From a virus, in the IMG/VR virus record IMGVR_UViG_3300018083_000790, positions 1 to 22,722 of that record: DNA of 22,722 nt; one strand, given 5' to 3'. Made by a program: the position numbers and the translations under genes. The notes below the pieces were generated by a model that saw only the letters and a list, made by a program, of their open reading frames with translations, was not told the DNA's origin and searched no databases. Shown here in pieces: positions 3,524-21,158 of this stretch; position 1 is the first letter of the stretch, and the number at the start of each line of letters is the position of its first letter.

Positions 3524-6034
3524 ATGAAAAAATTATTTTTTGCTCTGCTCTTACTGTCAAGCATAACCGCTGTGGCACAACCCAAGCACTACGTTGTCCC
3601 GGTCGCCGTTACCGTCGGCAACGAACAACAGAATTCGAACCAGGGAATAAGGGCTGTGGGAGGGACGGCATACGGAGGACCCGAGTACAACGAGAACCGC
3701 AACGTTGTCCGTTTCCAGGAAACCCTGGCACCAGGAGAGACCCTGAGCTTTGACATCATAAACCAGAACAACATGTACGTGATCGGCCTGGCCCCAGGGA
3801 CCAGCCACACCAACGTATACTCCACCCCGGTCGGCAACACCCAGGTAAGGTACGGGATGACCGTAGGGAACAGCTCCAAGGCCAGCGTTTACGAGGGCGG
3901 ATACATTATCACCAACACGACGATCGCCTCGGGAAACTACCTGCAAATCGCCTACGAGGGCACGCAGATCAAGTACAAAAAGAGCACCAACGGCGGAAGC
4001 ACCTGGTCAACTTTTTACACCTCGACCTGGACGGCCAGCGGGAGCTATAACATTTATTTCGAGGCACCACCGCAATACGCCGGACCAAATAACATTTATA
4101 AACAGGGGACTGTGACCAACCAGGCGCCGACGGTTTCCGCCGGACCGGATAAGGCGACGACCCTACCGACAAACCAGGTGACCCTGACCGGAACAGCGAC
4201 AGACCCGGACGGCACCATAGCCACCAGGGCCTGGACCAAGGTCAGCGGACCAGCGGGAGGAGACCTGGCCACAGCCAATAACATCAGCACCCAGGTAACC
4301 AACCTGCAGCTGGGATCATACGTTTACCGATTTACCGCAACCGACAACCAGGGAGCAAGCGCCCAGGACGAAGCGACGGTCACGGTTTCAGGAGCGGACC
4401 CCAACGGATCTACCACCCTGACCTTTCCGGTTATACCCTTCAGCCAACCAGACTTTAAATGGCGGGGAGGAGGATCGGAGCAATGGCACGACCAATACTA
4501 CGTGAACATACCCACCGAGGCCGACCGCAAACCGCTGGACGCCGTTTATTTCCGGTTTGCCTGGAAGGAAATCGAGACCAGCCAAAACGTATTCCGGTGG
4601 GCGACCCTGGAGGACGAGATCAAGCGATGCATAGACGCCGGCCAGGTTTTCGGATTTGGGATCATGACGCAAACTGCCAGCTCGAGCTGGAGGACCGGCG
4701 TGCAGATGGACCAGGACCAAGGCGTCACAATGTACTACCCGGTTTATTTGCACCGGATGATGCAGGCCGGCGCAACCAACACCCGCGACTACATCCGGCA
4801 CGACGGCGGAGAATGGGTGCCCAATTATAACCACCCGGAATTTATAGCGCAAACCAGGAAACTGAACGACTCGATCTACGCCTGGCTGAACCGGACCAGC
4901 TACAAGGGGCACAAATACGCCGACGTTATAAATTACATCGACATCCGCCACGTTGGGGAGTGGGGAGAATGGCACTACAACCACACCGCCCCGGACACGA
5001 CCTACTGGCCAGCCGGGAGGCAGCCAACGATAGCGAGTTACAAGGCGATCATAGACGCCTACGTGGACGCCTACCCGACATTAAAGACAGCGATCAACGT
5101 CTCGGTTTACGACGCCAGGCAAATACCCAACACCTGGATACCAGCGGAAGTGGCGCACTACGCCCTGACCAAAAGGAATGCCTGGGGCCTGGTCGGCTGG
5201 CGCCGGGACCAATGGGGATTTGCCGACAACCAGGCCACCTACGTCCGCACCTGGACGGACCAGAACGTTAAAACTTTTGGAGGGATGAGATTTGACACCG
5301 TGATCATGGACCGCCACAACTTCGCCCCGGTGATCGGGGAGCCGCCAGGGAACTGGAACAACGGCGACCAGCCCTACATGAAAAACCTGCCGACCGAGAC
5401 CAGGAGATATAAACCGATGAGCTGGGGCAATGGAAACTTTTGGACCAGCCCGATGTACCGACCCGACCTGTTGACCCAGGGGACCCGCGACAGCGTCCGC
5501 CTGGCCAGCAAGCTGGCTGGCGCCCGCCTGCAGATAGATAGCGCCGTAATGAGCACGCAGACGACCCAGGGAGGCATAATCAACCTAAAGGTTTACTGGC
5601 GCAACGCTGGCGTTTGCCCGACCTACGAAACCTGGATCGTTAAATACCGGATCAAAGATGGCAGCGGAACGACGGTCATGACCAGCACCAGCAACTTTAA
5701 ACCTAAATGGTTTAGGGTTAACCCGACACCGACCCTGGTCGAGGACCAGATCACGGTCCCAGGGAACCTGCCGACAGGGAGCTACAGCCTCTGGATGATC
5801 ATAGAGGACAGCCTGGCCTACCGACCACCGCTGGCCATAGCCAACCAGGGAAGGACAGCGGCAGGAGAATACCAGCTCCGGTCCTCTTTCCAGATCGGAG
5901 AGGAGTGCACGGACTGCGTGGCCATGAGGAGCAGCCGGAACAAGTGGAGGATCAGTTTCTTTATTTTACTCGGCGTGGCGCTGATCGTTACGCTCCTGGG
6001 CAACACCCTGAGAGCCAAGCTGAAAGGACGTTAA
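3524..6034 (+). CDS. Secreted, membrane-anchored multidomain protein with glycosidase-like barrel (DUF4832-like)
   Basis: This 836-residue protein has a Sec signal peptide (MKKLFFALLLLSSITAVA, likely cut after Ala18). A beta-sandwich of carbohydrate-binding type follows at about 31-182, then a PKD/K319-like domain at 200-290 (GPDKATTLPTNQVTLTGTA... with TATDPDG and RAWTKVSGP). Next is a TIM-barrel-like region at 300-620 containing DIRHVGEWGEWH (Glu479, Glu482) and GEPPGNW (Glu606). A C-terminal beta-sandwich at about 660-790 resembles DUF4832, and a membrane helix at about 808-829 is followed by a basic end (RAKLKGR). The signal peptide plus basic-ended anchor predicts a type I protein facing the periplasm. 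This architecture is odd for a virion protein and suggests export by the infected host. The two carboxylates make hydrolase activity possible but unproven. Confidence 0.7.
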   Translation: MKKLFFALLLLSSITAVAQPKHYVVPVAVTVGNEQQNSNQGIRAVGGTAYGGPEYNENRNVVRFQETLAPGETLSFDIINQNNMYVIGLAPGTSHTNVYSTPVGNTQVRYGMTVGNSSKASVYEGGYIITNTTIASGNYLQIAYEGTQIKYKKSTNGGSTWSTFYTSTWTASGSYNIYFEAPPQYAGPNNIYKQGTVTNQAPTVSAGPDKATTLPTNQVTLTGTATDPDGTIATRAWTKVSGPAGGDLATANNISTQVTNLQLGSYVYRFTATDNQGASAQDEATVTVSGADPNGSTTLTFPVIPFSQPDFKWRGGGSEQWHDQYYVNIPTEADRKPLDAVYFRFAWKEIETSQNVFRWATLEDEIKRCIDAGQVFGFGIMTQTASSSWRTGVQMDQDQGVTMYYPVYLHRMMQAGATNTRDYIRHDGGEWVPNYNHPEFIAQTRKLNDSIYAWLNRTSYKGHKYADVINYIDIRHVGEWGEWHYNHTAPDTTYWPAGRQPTIASYKAIIDAYVDAYPTLKTAINVSVYDARQIPNTWIPAEVAHYALTKRNAWGLVGWRRDQWGFADNQATYVRTWTDQNVKTFGGMRFDTVIMDRHNFAPVIGEPPGNWNNGDQPYMKNLPTETRRYKPMSWGNGNFWTSPMYRPDLLTQGTRDSVRLASKLAGARLQIDSAVMSTQTTQGGIINLKVYWRNAGVCPTYETWIVKYRIKDGSGTTVMTSTSNFKPKWFRVNPTPTLVEDQITVPGNLPTGSYSLWMIIEDSLAYRPPLAIANQGRTAAGEYQLRSSFQIGEECTDCVAMRSSRNKWRISFFILLGVALIVTLLGNTLRAKLKGR

Positions 6035-6040
6035 CAGAAT

Positions 6041-6098
6041 TTTAACAAATAAATATACACGAAGGTGCACGAAAGTGCACCTTTTTGTTTTATGTTCG
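6041..6098 (+). promoter_or_regulatory. Hairpin-promoter element, copy 1
   Basis: The block opens with TTTAACAAAT, contains GTGCACGAAAGTGCAC, and ends in TATGTTCG (6091-6098). That box has one mismatch to the Bacteroidota -7 box TAnnTTTG. It starts the small-gene block 18 bases before an ATG. No TTTG -33 box is visible; the inverted repeat occupies that position, so it could be an operator. It matches copy 2 at 6961-7017 almost base for base. Confidence 0.55.
6062..6090 (+). terminator. GAAA-capped hairpin with T-run, likely terminator of the tail operon
   Basis: A perfect 9-bp stem (6062-6070 with 6075-6083) closes on a GAAA loop through a C-G pair and is followed by TTTGTTT. It lies 27 bases after the stop of the 836-residue gene. 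The T-rich tail supports intrinsic termination. The same hairpin recurs at 6982-7003 without a T-run, so termination may not be its only function. Confidence 0.6.
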
Positions 6099-6116
6099 CA
6101 TTTCAAACAACAAGCC

Positions 6117-6362
6117 ATGACACTACAACAGCAGAACGACGACCACTACCTGATTAAGGACAGCAAGGGAGAGAAAGTTATAGAGCTCTACGTCCGCGAG
6201 AACTTCCCCTGGTTTGAAGCCAGGCTCCACAGCTACTGGACCAAGGCGAACACCTGCCTGAAGGCGGATTGCAAGACGGCCAACGAGGCCCGCAACTACC
6301 TGGTACGTTTTTCTTCGGTTTGGTTAAAAGCCGGACCCGAGACCAGGGAAAGGATTTATTAA
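6117..6362 (+). CDS. Small hypothetical protein, first gene of the accessory block
   Basis: This protein has 81 residues from the ATG at 6117. The frame could open from a GTG at 6075, but that lies inside the hairpin and upstream of the promoter-like box, so I prefer the ATG after the A-rich leader. The sequence is soluble and basic, with an N-terminal beta-like part (YLIKDSKGEKVIELYVRENFPWFEARL) and a helical C-terminal part containing two cysteines (TCLKADC). I do not recognise a family. It is the first gene downstream of hairpin-promoter copy 1 and is followed by a UNCG hairpin. Confidence 0.6.
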   Translation: MTLQQQNDDHYLIKDSKGEKVIELYVRENFPWFEARLHSYWTKANTCLKADCKTANEARNYLVRFSSVWLKAGPETRERIY

Positions 6363-6369
6363 AATAACC

Positions 6370-6385
6370 GGGGCCTCCGGGCCCC
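6370..6385 (+). promoter_or_regulatory. UNCG-capped intergenic hairpin, copy 1 (loop UCCG)
   Basis: A perfect 6-bp stem GGGGCC/GGCCCC encloses TCCG, 7 bases after a stop codon and 14 bases before the next ATG. The flanks AACC and ACAA are shared with copies at 7382 and 7629. There is no T-run afterwards, so a standard intrinsic terminator is unlikely. RNA processing, mRNA stabilisation or translational insulation are possible. Confidence 0.7.
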
Positions 6386-6399
6386 ACAATACCAACAGC

Positions 6400-6609
6400 A
6401 TGAAATCAAGAAACGAATTTGCCAACGACGCCTTTTATAACGACTACCTCCTGGCCTATTACGCCGGACAATTCCTGGCAGCCAGGGCGACCGGCCCCTA
6501 CGTGGTGAACGCGGAAGCAGCCGTTCTCCAGGCCCAAGCCCTGATCAACGCCCTGAAGGCTTACCAGCCAGGAACCAAGACAGCCGACACCAAAACCTTC
6601 AACTATTAA
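6400..6609 (+). CDS. Small hypothetical protein
   Basis: A 69-residue acidic-to-neutral protein, predicted mainly helical, with an aromatic N-terminal half (DAFYNDYLLAYYAGQFLA), an Ala-rich helix (NAEAAVLQAQALINALKAY) and a polar tail. It has no membrane helix or signal peptide. It sits between a UNCG hairpin and a 111-residue gene of common phage type. I do not recognise the family. Confidence 0.55.
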   Translation: MKSRNEFANDAFYNDYLLAYYAGQFLAARATGPYVVNAEAAVLQAQALINALKAYQPGTKTADTKTFNY

Positions 6610-6618
6610 AACCCCGAT

Positions 6619-6954
6619 ATGAACAACAAACACAGCAAAGGACCCTGGGCCGTTTCCTGGAACACGTTAAACGGAGGAGAGGCTCACGGCATCTACGCCA
6701 GCGGCGAGATGGACCTAACCGACTTCAGGATCGCGACCGTTAACTGGTACCCGACCATGAACCAGGATGCCGACGAGGAGACCGGCAAAGGGAACGCCAG
6801 GCTCATAGCAGCGGCGCCCGAGCTCCTGCAGGCCCTGGTAAACATGGTGGTTTATTTCGGGACCGTGCCAGGGATGAACAGGAGCGAACCCCAGGAGCTG
6901 GTGATCAAGGAGGCCAGGCGACTGATCCTGGGTTTGAACAGCGTACCCCACTAA
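6619..6954 (+). CDS. Phage protein with NARLIAAAPELL motif
   Basis: This 111-residue protein has an N-terminal KGPWAVSWN segment, a central beta-like region, and the motif GNARLIAAAPELLQALVNMV (residues about 58-77). That motif is seen in many small phage and prophage proteins of unknown role. The C-terminal region is an amphipathic helix (ELVIKEARRLILGL). The ATG is 9 bases after the preceding stop. Family membership is recognised from the motif; the biochemical function of such proteins is not known to me. Confidence 0.65.
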   Translation: MNNKHSKGPWAVSWNTLNGGEAHGIYASGEMDLTDFRIATVNWYPTMNQDADEETGKGNARLIAAAPELLQALVNMVVYFGTVPGMNRSEPQELVIKEARRLILGLNSVPH

Positions 6955-6960
6955 CAAAAC

Positions 6961-7017
6961 TTTAACAAATTTATTTACACGATAGTGCACGAAAGTGCAC
7001 TATTCGCGTTATGTTTG
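6961..7017 (+). promoter_or_regulatory. Hairpin-promoter element, copy 2
   Basis: The block has TTTAACAAAT, a perfect 9-bp stem (6982-6990 with 6995-7003) capped by GAAA, and TATGTTTG (7010-7017), a full match to the Bacteroidota -7 box TAnnTTTG. Two outer stem pairs differ from copy 1 but remain paired, so the hairpin itself is conserved. No T-run follows, so this copy reads as a promoter with an operator or leader hairpin rather than a terminator. The next ATG is 34 bases downstream. Confidence 0.65.
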
Positions 7018-7051
7018 CAATTCACCCGGCGGAAGCCACAAACACAAAAAC

Positions 7052-7375
7052 ATGACCACCTACAAACTGACCAAGACCCCGATCGGAAAAAAAGGAATCG
7101 AATTTTTATACCAGGTCATCGACCAGGACGGCAAAGAGATCAGCCGCCGGACCAGCATGAGAAACTACGTGGCCTGCACGATCAGCGGCAGCCACTACTT
7201 CGGACGCCGGGACCTGGTAGGCAAAGGAGAGCACGGCGACATGATCAAGATGGCCCAAGGCTGGGGCAGGAGACGCGATGCACGCGGCAGGTACAACTGG
7301 GTAAAAGTGAACGAGCCGAACCAGGACATGATAGACCGCGCCAACCAGGTCGCCTACCTGGACGAGACCAAATAA
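7052..7375 (+). CDS. Small basic hypothetical protein
   Basis: A 107-residue basic protein counted from ATG 7052. An in-frame ATG at 6995 lies inside the hairpin upstream of the promoter box and is rejected. Visible features are TYKLTKTPIGKKGIEFLYQVID, then YVACTISGSHYFGRRDLVGKG and a strongly basic run (GRRRDARGRYNW). The basic run would suit nucleic-acid binding, but no known fold is recognisable. It is the first gene after hairpin-promoter copy 2 and is followed by UNCG hairpin copy 2. Confidence 0.6.
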   Translation: MTTYKLTKTPIGKKGIEFLYQVIDQDGKEISRRTSMRNYVACTISGSHYFGRRDLVGKGEHGDMIKMAQGWGRRRDARGRYNWVKVNEPNQDMIDRANQVAYLDETK

Positions 7376-7381
7376 ATAACC

Positions 7382-7397
7382 GGGGCCTACGGGCCCC
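7382..7397 (+). promoter_or_regulatory. UNCG-capped intergenic hairpin, copy 2 (loop UACG)
   Basis: The stem GGGGCC/GGCCCC matches the copies at 6370 and 7629, with loop TACG. It lies 15 bases before the next ATG and has the same AACC and ACAA flanks. No T-run follows. Confidence 0.7.
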
Positions 7398-7412
7398 ACA
7401 AAACCAACCACC

Positions 7413-7622
7413 ATGACCATCGAACAAAAAAGAAGCCTGGCGATCATAAACGAGCACCTGGAGGACCAGGGCGCCAGCACCTGGAGCGAATACAACGCCA
7501 AGGACCTGGGCCTGACCGGCCAGGAAAGCGAGGCTGAGCTTTACGAGATCGCCCGCGAGATAGCCAGCGAGGAGGCCACCGAGAAGGCCTACTTCAAAAA
7601 CGCCTGGAGATTTGAGATTTAA
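7413..7622 (+). CDS. Small acidic hypothetical protein
   Basis: A 69-residue, strongly acidic, mostly helical protein (many Glu and Ala, e.g. ESEAELYEIAREIASEEATEKAY). It has no cysteines, membrane helix or signal peptide. Small acidic phage early proteins are often DNA mimics or inhibitors of host enzymes; that is a possibility only, since no specific family is recognised. It is flanked on both sides by UNCG hairpins. Confidence 0.55.
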   Translation: MTIEQKRSLAIINEHLEDQGASTWSEYNAKDLGLTGQESEAELYEIAREIASEEATEKAYFKNAWRFEI

Positions 7623-7628
7623 ACAACC

Positions 7629-7644
7629 GGGGCCTTCGGGCCCC
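7629..7644 (+). promoter_or_regulatory. UNCG-capped intergenic hairpin, copy 3 (loop UUCG)
   Basis: The stem GGGGCC/GGCCCC has loop TTCG, the most stable UNCG tetraloop. It starts 6 bases after a stop codon and ends 14 bases before the next ATG. Across the three copies the stem is invariant and the loop differs only at its second base, the position left free in UNCG loops. Confidence 0.7.
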
Positions 7645-7658
7645 ACAAAACCCAAGAC

Positions 7659-7973
7659 ATGATACAGATCACAAAAACCCAGGGGAGCAGCGTGGAGACC
7701 CGCTACTTCCCTCACACCACCCGAGGACAACAGCAGGCCACAAAATGGATACAGGAGCTCCACGACGCGCAAAAGCGCAACCGCTGGTTTTACCTGATGG
7801 ACCGGATACAGCGACGCCAGGTCATCATCGACAGCCAATGGAACTACAACAGCGACAAAGCCAGGCAGGCCCGCCGGGAGATACGCGACCTTATGGACGA
7901 GCGGGCCGTTTTCATCGCGGCCAACGGCCTCACCAAACCCGACCCTATCACCGTAAAAATTGAGACGACATGA
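7659..7973 (+). CDS. Small basic helical hypothetical protein
   Basis: A 104-residue basic protein. A beta-like N-terminus (MIQITKTQGSSVETRYF) leads into a long Arg/Gln-rich helical region (residues about 22-90). The stop overlaps the start of the lipoprotein gene (ATGA), so the two are translationally coupled. No recognised domain. It lacks a membrane helix, which argues against it being an inner-membrane spanin partner for the lipoprotein. Confidence 0.55.
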   Translation: MIQITKTQGSSVETRYFPHTTRGQQQATKWIQELHDAQKRNRWFYLMDRIQRRQVIIDSQWNYNSDKARQARREIRDLMDERAVFIAANGLTKPDPITVKIETT

Positions 7974-8251
7974 AACGACTACTACCGGCCCTTTTTCTTT
8001 TAGCCATCGGCTGCAGCAAGGACGAGAACCCGTGCCCCGGACCAGGGACGATAGGCCTCCGCCCGCCAGGGATCGTGACCTGGACCAACCCGGTCCAGGT
8101 ACAGATCGAGGTGCAGGGAATTAGCTGGCCAGGTCACGCGATCATGACGCCCAACGAGACCCTAGAGCACCGGATCGAGGGGCACGCGATGGTGCGGATC
8201 AAAACTGATTGTTCACCCTGGTCCACCTGGATCGAGATCAACAAGCCATAA
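7970..8251 (+). CDS. Small lipoprotein with putative surface-export signal
   Basis: This 93-residue protein has a signal peptide (MKRLLPALFLLAIGC) ending in a lipobox, so Cys15 should be lipidated. The residues just after it, SKDEN, fit the Lys-Asp/Glu-rich lipoprotein export signal that sends lipoproteins to the outer face of the Bacteroidota outer membrane. The mature part is about 78 residues, with a Pro/Gly-rich start (CPGPGTIGLRPPG), beta-like strands and a second and third Cys. It is coupled to the preceding gene by ATGA. Phage lipoproteins are known as superinfection-exclusion factors and as outer-membrane spanins. The surface signal favours exclusion, but this is inference. Confidence 0.65.
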   Translation: MKRLLPALFLLAIGCSKDENPCPGPGTIGLRPPGIVTWTNPVQVQIEVQGISWPGHAIMTPNETLEHRIEGHAMVRIKTDCSPWSTWIEINKP

Positions 8252-8291
8252 AATAAATACCCGGACCTGCACGCGATTACACGAACTTCCT

Positions 8292-8299
8292 TATATTTG
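8292..8299 (+). promoter_or_regulatory. Promoter-like -7 box TATATTTG
   Basis: TATATTTG is a full match to the Bacteroidota -7 consensus, 16 bases upstream of an ATG and in a 64-base gap after the lipoprotein gene. No clear TTG -33 box is visible at the usual distance. Upstream sequence includes TACACGAA (8277-8284), part of which also occurs in the hairpin-promoter elements at 6041 and 6961. Confidence 0.5.
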
Positions 8300-8315
8300 C
8301 ACAAACCCAACCAGC

Positions 8316-8588
8316 ATGGCCAAAAAAGGACCCGACCAGACCTACTTCAGCAACCAGATAAGCGCCATCGCCTACGCGATCAACAAGACAGAAACCTCGG
8401 GCCGTTTCCGGGTTTTTGTTTCCGGCAACTTCCTGGTGAAGGACTGCAAGCCAGGCACGACGATGACCTACCGATTTGAGATACAGAACAGGCAAACCGG
8501 CCTCTGGACCCAGGAGAACCTGCACCTGCAGATTTACAAGATGGAGGACAGCGCCGGGAGTTTTGAGCTAAATTTTTACACCAATTAA
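8316..8588 (+). CDS. Small hypothetical protein
   Basis: A 90-residue protein starting with MAKKGPDQTYFSNQISAIAYAINKTE and continuing with predicted beta strands (GRFRVFVSGNFLV, MTYRFEIQN, LHLQIYKM, SFELNFYTN). It is soluble, slightly basic and has one cysteine. It follows the promoter-like box and is probably the first gene of a run extending through the HTH gene. I do not recognise the family. Confidence 0.55.
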   Translation: MAKKGPDQTYFSNQISAIAYAINKTETSGRFRVFVSGNFLVKDCKPGTTMTYRFEIQNRQTGLWTQENLHLQIYKMEDSAGSFELNFYTN

Positions 8589-8598
8589 ACCAACGACA

Positions 8599-8826
8599 AT
8601 GGAAGCGACAGACAGCAAGACGGACCTCCAGGTCCAGCTCGACCCGGACCTGGTCGACGAGAAGCAGGCCGCCGAGCTCCTGGGGATTTCCAGGCGGACC
8701 TTTCAAAACAGGTTTTACCTGGGCGATATACCCAGGGACCACTACATCACCCTGGTAACCGGCAAGCGCCGGTACTACAAAAGCCGGCTCCTGGGACAGC
8801 CGAAACCAAAAACCAAAAACCGATAA
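8599..8826 (+). CDS. Small helix-turn-helix DNA-binding protein
   Basis: A 75-residue protein containing VDEKQAAELLGISRRTFQNRFYLGDIP (residues about 19-45), a typical helix-turn-helix of the MerR-like/excisionase (HTH_17) kind. A basic region with paired Arg/Tyr (GKRRYYKSRLLG) resembling the wing follows, then a Lys/Pro-rich tail. Such proteins act as transcriptional regulators or excisionases. No integrase is present here, so regulation of the neighbouring promoters is the simpler guess. It is the only obvious sequence-specific DNA-binding candidate in the small-gene block that could recognise the GTGCAC operators. Confidence 0.7.
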   Translation: MEATDSKTDLQVQLDPDLVDEKQAAELLGISRRTFQNRFYLGDIPRDHYITLVTGKRRYYKSRLLGQPKPKTKNR

Positions 8827-8837
8827 ACCGATACACG

Positions 8838-9113
8838 ATGCAACGAACCCTGAAATTTACGACCCCGGTCAACGACCAACGCCACCTGCACGGCCACCTG
8901 CTGGTGACCTTCACCCTGAGCGGCAGCGACATAGAGCTGCAGCGGATCGAATACGAGGAGGCCTACAGGACCAGCAAGCGAGCGGAGATCACCTGGATGA
9001 TCCAGGAGCACGCCCCTGCCCTTTTTCAAACCCTGGAAGCGATGGCAGCCGACCTGGTAGCCACCAACAGGATACCGGCCAAGGGACAGAAAATCAGGGA
9101 GGAGGACATATGA
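8838..9113 (+). CDS. Small hypothetical protein
   Basis: A 91-residue protein with an N-terminal beta-type region (LKFTTPVNDQRHLHGHLLVTFTLSGSDIELQRIEY), then a helical C-terminal half (EITWMIQEHAPALFQTLEAMAADLV) and a basic/acidic tail. It ends with an ATGA overlap into the next gene, which encodes a membrane protein, suggesting the pair works together. No family recognised. Confidence 0.55.
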   Translation: MQRTLKFTTPVNDQRHLHGHLLVTFTLSGSDIELQRIEYEEAYRTSKRAEITWMIQEHAPALFQTLEAMAADLVATNRIPAKGQKIREEDI

Positions 9114-9442
9114 GACTAATTTATAACATCCTAGCGGCGGGCCTGGTAACCAGCATTTTCTTACTTCTCCGGTTTGCCTGGAAGGCGCACCGGGAGATGG
9201 TAACCGAGGACCGGGGAGAGCTGGACCAGAAAGCCAGGGACCTGATCAAGTGCAGCTACGATATCAGGGAGCACATACACCGAGCCGACACGACCGCCGA
9301 GCTGAACGAGTGCAGCCGGGAAGTTACCTGGCTCCTGGACACCTTCACGGAGATCTGCGACCCGGAAACCCTGGACCGGCACCGGGTCCGTCTCCAGGAC
9401 GCGATGGACGATAAGGCCTCCCGGATCGCGGCCAAGAATTAG
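9110..9442 (+). CDS. Single-span membrane protein with cytoplasmic helical domain
   Basis: A 110-residue protein with an N-terminal membrane helix (about residues 4-22, ILAAGLVTSIFLLL) followed by basic residues (RFAWKAHR) and a long, charged, helical domain containing Cys and many Glu/Arg. The positive-inside rule places the C-terminal domain in the cytoplasm. The shape resembles an i-spanin (Rz), but that orientation and the lack of a paired outer lipoprotein in overlap argue against it. It is coupled to the preceding gene by ATGA. Function unknown. Confidence 0.55.
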   Translation: MRLIYNILAAGLVTSIFLLLRFAWKAHREMVTEDRGELDQKARDLIKCSYDIREHIHRADTTAELNECSREVTWLLDTFTEICDPETLDRHRVRLQDAMDDKASRIAAKN

Positions 9443-12090: not shown

Positions 12091-12122
12091 GGCCTGGAGC
12101 AATAGCCTCCGGGCCTTTTTTT
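12091..12122 (+). terminator. Rho-independent terminator after the SSB gene
   Basis: A 9-bp stem (12091-12099 with 12107-12115, one G-U pair) closes a 7-base loop and is followed by seven T residues (12116-12122). It lies 20 bases after the SSB stop. It would cut transcription before the HNH/polymerase genes unless there is antitermination or a promoter downstream. Confidence 0.85.
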
Positions 12123-20901: not shown

Positions 20902-20908
20902 AAAAAAG

Positions 20909-20943
20909 GGGCCGGCAGAGAACTGCCAGCCCGTTAACTTTTT
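20909..20943 (+). terminator. Intrinsic terminator closing the replication operon
   Basis: A 10-bp stem with one C-A mismatch (20909-20918 with 20923-20932) is capped by AGAA and followed by GTTAAC and a five-T run. It lies 7 bases after the last gene of the operon. An A-run before the stem would let it work weakly in the other direction too. Confidence 0.75.
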
Positions 20944-21158
20944 CCAATATCCATTAAAATCAAAACATTAACGCCACCCCCACATCCAAACAGGAATAGC
21001 CGACAGCAAGATATAAAAAAAGCCGGACTTTTACGCCCGGCCCAAAATACAACCCATGACCCAAGAAAGGTCGACCAGGGCCGAAGATAGGGAGAAATAA
21101 ACAGCCTGTTGATAAAAAAAGGGGAATTTGTGGACAAACCCGCGTTAATTTGGCACCG
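20944..21158. other. Noncoding gap between replication and packaging modules
   Basis: Together with the terminator this is the second-longest noncoding stretch in the window. It has no convincing + strand gene. Besides the minus-strand terminator it contains TGTTGATAA (21108) and TGTGGACAA (21129), each one base off the DnaA-box complement TGTGGATAA; this is weak evidence. I find no clear promoter for the methyltransferase gene. Confidence 0.45.
21015..21041 (-). terminator. Minus-strand intrinsic terminator
   Basis: Read on the minus strand, a 7-bp stem with one G-U pair (21041-21035 with 21028-21022) has a GTAAAA loop and is followed by seven T residues (complement of 21015-21021). It would stop leftward transcription coming from the methyltransferase region. 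No convincing minus-strand gene is visible there, so it may block antisense transcription or end a small antisense RNA. Confidence 0.65.

Follow-up and report, generated by a model that had tools for sequence, protein, structure and literature searches.

The window, that is, the whole stretch of DNA that was analysed, is a virus record of 22722 bases whose main gene series lies on the + strand, and at two places in this series a perfect GAAA-capped hairpin stands directly ahead of a promoter-like box. Is the hairpin a part of the promoter, as an initial annotation had proposed, or do the hairpin and the box belong to a wider arrangement? The gene families (DUF2800, ssDNA-binding protein, family A polymerase and VapE-like protein) point to a tailed phage that carries a replication module. 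Relatives of this module were found in Bacteroidota prophage-like loci (one Chitinophaga and two Chitinophagaceae assemblies among them) and also in many Firmicutes. These relatives, together with the promoter boxes described below, point to Bacteroidota as the probable host phylum.

Cassettes and gene units

From the sequence we infer three phage promoter cassettes of one family (P1, P2 and P3), each heading a rightward gene set. The cassettes, their parts and the units behind them are as follows.

6041..6100, + strand: putative cassette P1, with TTTAACAAAT, phased units at 6055-6064, 6065-6074 and 6075-6084, a spacer and TTATGTTCGCA
6062..6083, + strand: hairpin copy 1, a 9-bp stem AAGGTGCAC-GAAA-GTGCACCTT with a T-run behind it, resembling an intrinsic terminator
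6091..6098, + strand: -7-type box of P1, TATGTTCG, with 5/6 consensus positions, G at -9 and C for T at -6
6117..6954, + strand: unit behind P1, ORFs 6117-6362, 6400-6609 and 6619-6954 (the last in PHROG 1273, of unknown function)
6961..7019, + strand: putative cassette P2, with TTTAACAAAT, phased units at 6975-6984, 6985-6994 and 6995-7004, and TTATGTTTGCA
6982..7003, + strand: hairpin copy 2, a 9-bp stem ATAGTGCAC-GAAA-GTGCACTAT without a T-run
7010..7017, + strand: -7-type box of P2, TATGTTTG, an exact TAnnTTTG with G at -9
7052..8251, + strand: unit behind P2, ORFs 7052-7375, 7413-7622, 7659-7973 and 7970-8251, with no known family above cut-off
8251..8301, + strand: putative cassette P3, with units at 8257-8266 (ATACCCGGAC), 8267-8276 (CTGCACGCGA) and 8277-8286 (TTACACGAAC), then TTATATTTGCA; no hairpin
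8292..8299, + strand: -7-type box of P3, TATATTTG, with the full TAHHTTTG consensus
8316..9442, + strand: first genes of the unit behind P3, 8316-8588, 8599-8826 (helix-turn-helix, HTH), 8838-9113 and 9110-9442, with the replication module next
8599..8826, + strand: 75-aa HTH protein, excisionase/transcriptional-regulator PHROG 66, in the operon behind P3

The third homologous cassette, P3 at 8251-8301, had been overlooked in the initial annotation. A profile built from the 40 nt upstream of the P1 and P2 boxes, with the boxes left out, was scanned over the window, and its best + strand place outside the two copies was 8251 (score 15.0), in exact register with TTATATTTGCA; the next unrelated + strand place scored 10.2. 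On the minus strand, the copies' own dyads scored 16.5 and 15.6, above the 15.0 of P3, and one unrelated place scored 13.1. Upstream of its box, P3 is identical to P1 at 23/40 positions and to P2 at 21/40, and none of 20000 dinucleotide shuffles of P3 reached 23/40 in a test that took the better of P1 (shifted one base) and P2. The P1 and P2 blocks form a 49-nt repeat of 86% identity that starts at the TAA stop codon of the upstream gene, and the core GTGCACGAAAGTGCAC occurs exactly twice in the window, both times on the + strand.

In each of the three cassettes, three units of the type T[A/G]C[A/C]C, in most cases with a G behind, recur at exact 10-bp steps and lead into TTATnTTYGCA. In P1 and P2 the G is missing from the third unit (CACC and CACT, respectively), and the units of P3 are looser (ACCCGG, GCACGC and ACACGA). 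A looser unit in P1 and P2, TACACGA, one turn upstream of the GTGCAC pair, had also escaped the initial annotation. CACGN6CACG has three sites in the window. TTATnTTYGCA likewise has just three exact sites, and each of these has one of the CACG pairs before it. The number of CACG pairs by itself is not rare, as 12 of 100 shuffles reached three; it is their co-location with the boxes that carries weight. Moreover, a triple-repeat score at period 10 equalled 14 in each of P1, P2 and P3, a value reached by 0, 1 and 1 of 1000 shuffles, respectively. This score peaked at period 10 and was lower at 8, 9, 11 and 12, which corresponds to the arrays of Apl, Cox and Xis (three or more short direct repeats spaced by about one turn). 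By comparison, only one of 44 boxes from eight related loci, taken without a filter for coding sequence, reached 14. The cassette family is real and non-random.

Promoter boxes in the host context

A TAnnTTTG -7 box of the Bacteroidota primary sigma type lies shortly before the start codon in all three cassettes, exact in P2 and P3 and with one change in P1, and the proposed joining of a hairpin to such a box holds for P1 and P2. A Bacteroidota-type TTTG or TTG at -33 is absent from the cassettes, and TGCACG stands there instead, covering -36 to -31 in all three (one base further in P1). This placement over the -33 region is consistent with the operator-like role at -33 that had been suggested. 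No strong -33 motif was seen across 62 aligned Chitinophaga promoters, and excerpts of the F. johnsoniae promoter survey describe the -33 element as weak there too, G at -9 as virtually absent and many transcription starts as lying 4-5 nt past the -7 element (PMC6847099). By that spacing, transcription would start near 6103, 7022 and 8304.

In 760 kb of Chitinophaga genome, the density of TAnnTTTG was 1.47/kb upstream of genes and 0.107/kb within genes, a difference of ~14-fold. Boxes with G at the fourth position were less common: TA[ACT]GTTTG was seen 7 times upstream against 1.1 scaled from coding sequence, and TATGTTTG once against 0.4. In contrast, TATGTTCG was not enriched upstream of Chitinophaga genes in the same 760 kb (0 seen against 1.5 scaled from coding). 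According to these counts, the box of P3 is therefore the best and those of P1 and P2 are off-consensus; the latter two may need help.

A bidirectional promoter with TAAATTTG on the minus strand (6966-6973) was dropped because no leftward gene of the series lies there. Two host-side candidates were dropped as well. TTTAACAAA followed by TATGTTTG, prompted by one Chitinophaga match, was tried as a host promoter architecture and gave 14 matches against 22 in a reversed control over 244 Chitinophagaceae genomes. Phased CACG followed by TAnnTTTGC, as a host feature, gave 3 matches against 18 in the control over 147 Chitinophagaceae genomes. The latter pattern occurred in 12 stretches of viral contigs, 2 from the phage of the window and 10 in coding (judged by eye) or unrelated DNA. 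Three tandem TAnnTTTG boxes at 8-bp steps were observed in a Bacteroidetes prophage-like locus (L103:5935-5958).

Hairpins and competing readings

The sequence and positions of the two hairpins and their boxes were confirmed, and stems of at least 9 bp with a 4-nt loop are far beyond chance: the window has two, whereas 60 dinucleotide shuffles averaged 0.05. The RNA fold z-scores were -3.37 and -3.81 for the regions of copy 1 and copy 2, and the ssDNA fold z-scores of the two copies were -4.35 and -2.96, respectively. GTGCAC is its own reverse complement, which the initial annotation did not remark. Because this hexamer is self-palindromic and repeated directly at 10 bp, the inner 6 bp of the stem are automatic, and it is the outer three pairs alone that need a further reason. 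Two of these outer pairs differ between the copies and are kept paired in both, as had been noted; the argument for selection drawn from them is weak, with two sequences and 140 of 500 column shuffles scoring as well.

P3 lacks the fold (z +1.19 as RNA and +1.27 as DNA) and keeps 4/9 stem pairs, 5/9 being broken. Because P3 nevertheless retains the phased repeats and the box, the initial proposal of the hairpin as the conserved promoter unit is not supported. The hairpin thus appears to be an extra in two of the three cassettes, the phased units and the box being the common part, and the P1 and P2 elements seem better described as part of a three-member phased-site promoter family than as a hairpin-promoter fusion. 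Both hairpins lie upstream of the predicted starts and therefore can act only on RNA arriving from the upstream operon. The stem follows the stop codon of the preceding gene by 27 nt in both copies, as part of the duplicated block, and for copy 1 this is the last tail gene. The 8 nt downstream contain 7 T in copy 1, which scores as a terminator, and 3 T in copy 2. Copy 1 hence reads as a probable terminator of the tail operon, in line with the earlier view of it as a junction where this operon ends and the next begins, and copy 2 would be at most a weak terminator, or the 3'-end hairpin of the P1 unit. In two unrelated viral contigs (L005 and L008), the same core occurs as a plain hairpin with a long T-run, which suggests that it serves well as a terminator stem.

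Taken together, our best reading, with a probability of about 0.6, is a family of phage promoters, each with a helix-phased regulator array of the Apl/Cox/Xis type, to which P1 and P2 would add hairpins acting on upstream RNA.

The initial annotation had proposed to look for the hairpin plus box in related phages with a covariance model. Such a model (R1), run over the window and 66 loci, found beyond the window only two terminator loci with the core and weak matches to the core alone, and it matched 1 of 98 Chitinophagaceae genomes, at a terminator between genes. That this single match is a terminator would fit a plain duplicated intergenic junction, in which an intrinsic terminator is followed by a host-type promoter and the phased repeats come from shared descent alone and hold no regulatory site. 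The terminator score of copy 1 would fit it too, as would a Chitinophaga terminator with TATCTTTG close behind. However, copy 2 has no T-run, and the hairpin-free P3 keeps the phased units and their register, for whose retention over the remainder of the cassette descent by itself gives no reason; we consider this reading rather unlikely. If the elements were only a terminator-promoter junction, they would be ordinary.

The perfect 9-bp dyads of both copies, which so exceed the shuffle mean, their strong ssDNA fold and the paired changes on both arms could also mean that the hairpin itself is a promoter part, namely a DNA dyad or cruciform at -33 bound by a dimeric operator protein, with P3 as a decayed or differently regulated copy. 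Yet P3 keeps box, register and phased units with most of the pairs broken, a sequence-reading dimer would be expected to hold its half-site letters rather than covary, and the covariation is not significant, all of which makes this explanation improbable. An RNA leader or riboregulator for the downstream genes, to which the stable GAAA tetraloop on the coding strand and the location of all five perfect stable-tetraloop stems (at least 6 bp) of the window on the + strand had lent some appeal, is very hard to maintain, as both hairpins lie wholly upstream of the starts predicted from the boxes by the 4-5-nt spacing given in excerpts of PMC6847099, and Rfam 15 gave 0 matches in the window at the gathering score.

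Other hairpins were observed between genes. Three intercistronic hairpins of the form GGGGCC-UNCG-GGCCCC lie on the + strand at 6370-6385, 7382-7397 and 7629-7644, with the loops UCCG, UACG and UUCG, varying only at the free loop position; each stands 6-7 nt past a stop codon and 14-15 nt ahead of the next ATG. By their appearance they may insulate genes at the RNA level or stabilise the mRNA. Counting these three and the two GAAA hairpins, perfect UNCG or GNRA tetraloop stems of at least 6 bp number 5 on the + strand and 0 on the - strand, with a shuffle mean of 0.35 per strand. A strong terminator-like hairpin followed by TTTTTTT lies at 12091-12122 (+) behind the ssDNA-binding protein gene, which is also followed by hairpins in two other loci (L106 and L022).

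Candidate regulator and known systems

Helix-phased direct repeats are known sites of excisionase-type regulators. The best local candidate to bind the phased units is the HTH protein at 8599-8826, and its earlier naming as a candidate binder is retained on the basis of its match to PHROG 66 (E 6.4e-5) and its location behind P3. Its matches to HTH_17 and to TIGR01764 (excise; E 0.04) are below the cut-offs, the former that of Pfam; the fold model is poor and the family assignment weak. No paralogy was found among the early proteins.

Under the preferred reading of a phased-site promoter family, host RNA polymerase with its primary sigma would read the -7 box, and a regulator occupying the three units cooperatively along a single helix face would replace or block the -33 contact. 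The excisionase-like HTH protein, expressed from the P3 unit, would bind the three units and either activate or repress P1-P3, so that the three gene units would be joined in a single feedback loop. The second and third units of P1 and P2, GTGCAC palindromes lengthened by three matching bases, would form the 9-bp hairpins before the predicted start, copy 1 serving as the intrinsic terminator of the tail operon and copy 2 in one of the two roles given above. Promoter activity itself, the binder and the direction of control are what we infer here. A wider interpretation, which is possible but doubtful, is a class of Bacteroidota-sigma phage promoters in which a phased regulator-site array replaces the -33 element, as a counterpart of T4 sigma appropriation, and palindromic units of the array also supply the hairpin that terminates the preceding operon.

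In excerpts of the work on phage 186, Apl is described as recognizing 6-bp operators in direct repeats 10-11 bp apart, with three adjacent ones needed for binding in vitro (PMC7498355). Like the sites of Apl (186) and Cox/Xis (P2, lambda and P22), the cassettes have at least three adjacent direct repeats one turn apart over putative phage promoters, and a small HTH excisionase-like protein, here the candidate binder, is encoded nearby. In contrast to those systems, the units are TGCACG/TACACG-like and belong to a probable Bacteroidota phage, and no integrase or att site was seen in the window; unlike the Apl sites, P1-P3 precede three co-directional units rather than lying between facing lytic and lysogenic promoters. 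According to excerpts of the work on RdfS, this excisionase-type protein increases the transcription of one gene and reduces that of its own (PMC11963761). A phage site can also stand in for an upstream promoter element, as excerpts on T4 MotA state (PMC2988021). The cassettes resemble T4 middle promoters (MotA box and -10) in having a phage element at the place of the host upstream element and a host-type downstream box, but they carry three phased units rather than one box and a box of the Bacteroidota-type host sigma, and no relative of MotA or AsiA appeared in the family scans made. The extended start-associated sequences (ESAS) of cluster K mycobacteriophages, according to excerpts on them, are likewise inverted repeats upstream of several phage genes, but they measure 17 bp, are imperfect and accompany start-associated sequences (PMC3203893), whereas the repeat here is tied to a promoter box and an upstream stop codon. 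Copy 1 resembles intrinsic terminators in having a stem, a tetraloop and a T-run behind the last tail gene; copy 2 differs from them in lacking the T-run.

Viral contigs searched by protein and by pattern yielded no further, independent phage that carries the cassette, so the proposed function is deduced from three cassettes in one phage. The core was found in 8 stretches of viral contigs: one (L003) is the same phage, two are the hairpins with T-runs of L005 and L008, and the other five, whose flanks were read, have no -7 box of the P1-P3 kind. A longer 23-base pattern gave 3 stretches, namely L003 and two unrelated repeats. L003 and L011, both 100% matches to the window, derive from a single sample and hence are not independent. 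Apart from the same phage, searches with the 107-aa, 90-aa and DNA polymerase proteins reached distant replication relatives only. In a phage collection, no relative was found by DNA match, and the sole match to three early proteins was a partial one (6619-6951) in a Pseudomonas phage. Protein 7052-7375 had no match in 294 genomes in a search without a positive control, and a literature search with a few terms among open papers listed none that deals with regulated promoters in Bacteroidota phages.

The three putative promoters share a defined phased site and have a candidate regulator that can be named, which makes gene timing in such a phage open to test, and the use of one sequence as both a DNA site array and an RNA hairpin would be of interest for compact phage genomes.

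Three further features of the gene series were observed. The last tail-region gene (3524-6034, +) encodes an 836-aa protein with a PKD domain and DUF4832/DUF4874-like parts, an unusual cargo for a tail operon. At 20902-21149, 248 nt without a called gene contain more hairpin-like and T-/A-rich stretches ahead of the ParB/methylase gene. Past the right end of the window, L243 (record G298) has terminase-like and portal-like ORFs, judged from their translations, behind the methylase gene, which places late genes to the right of the early block.
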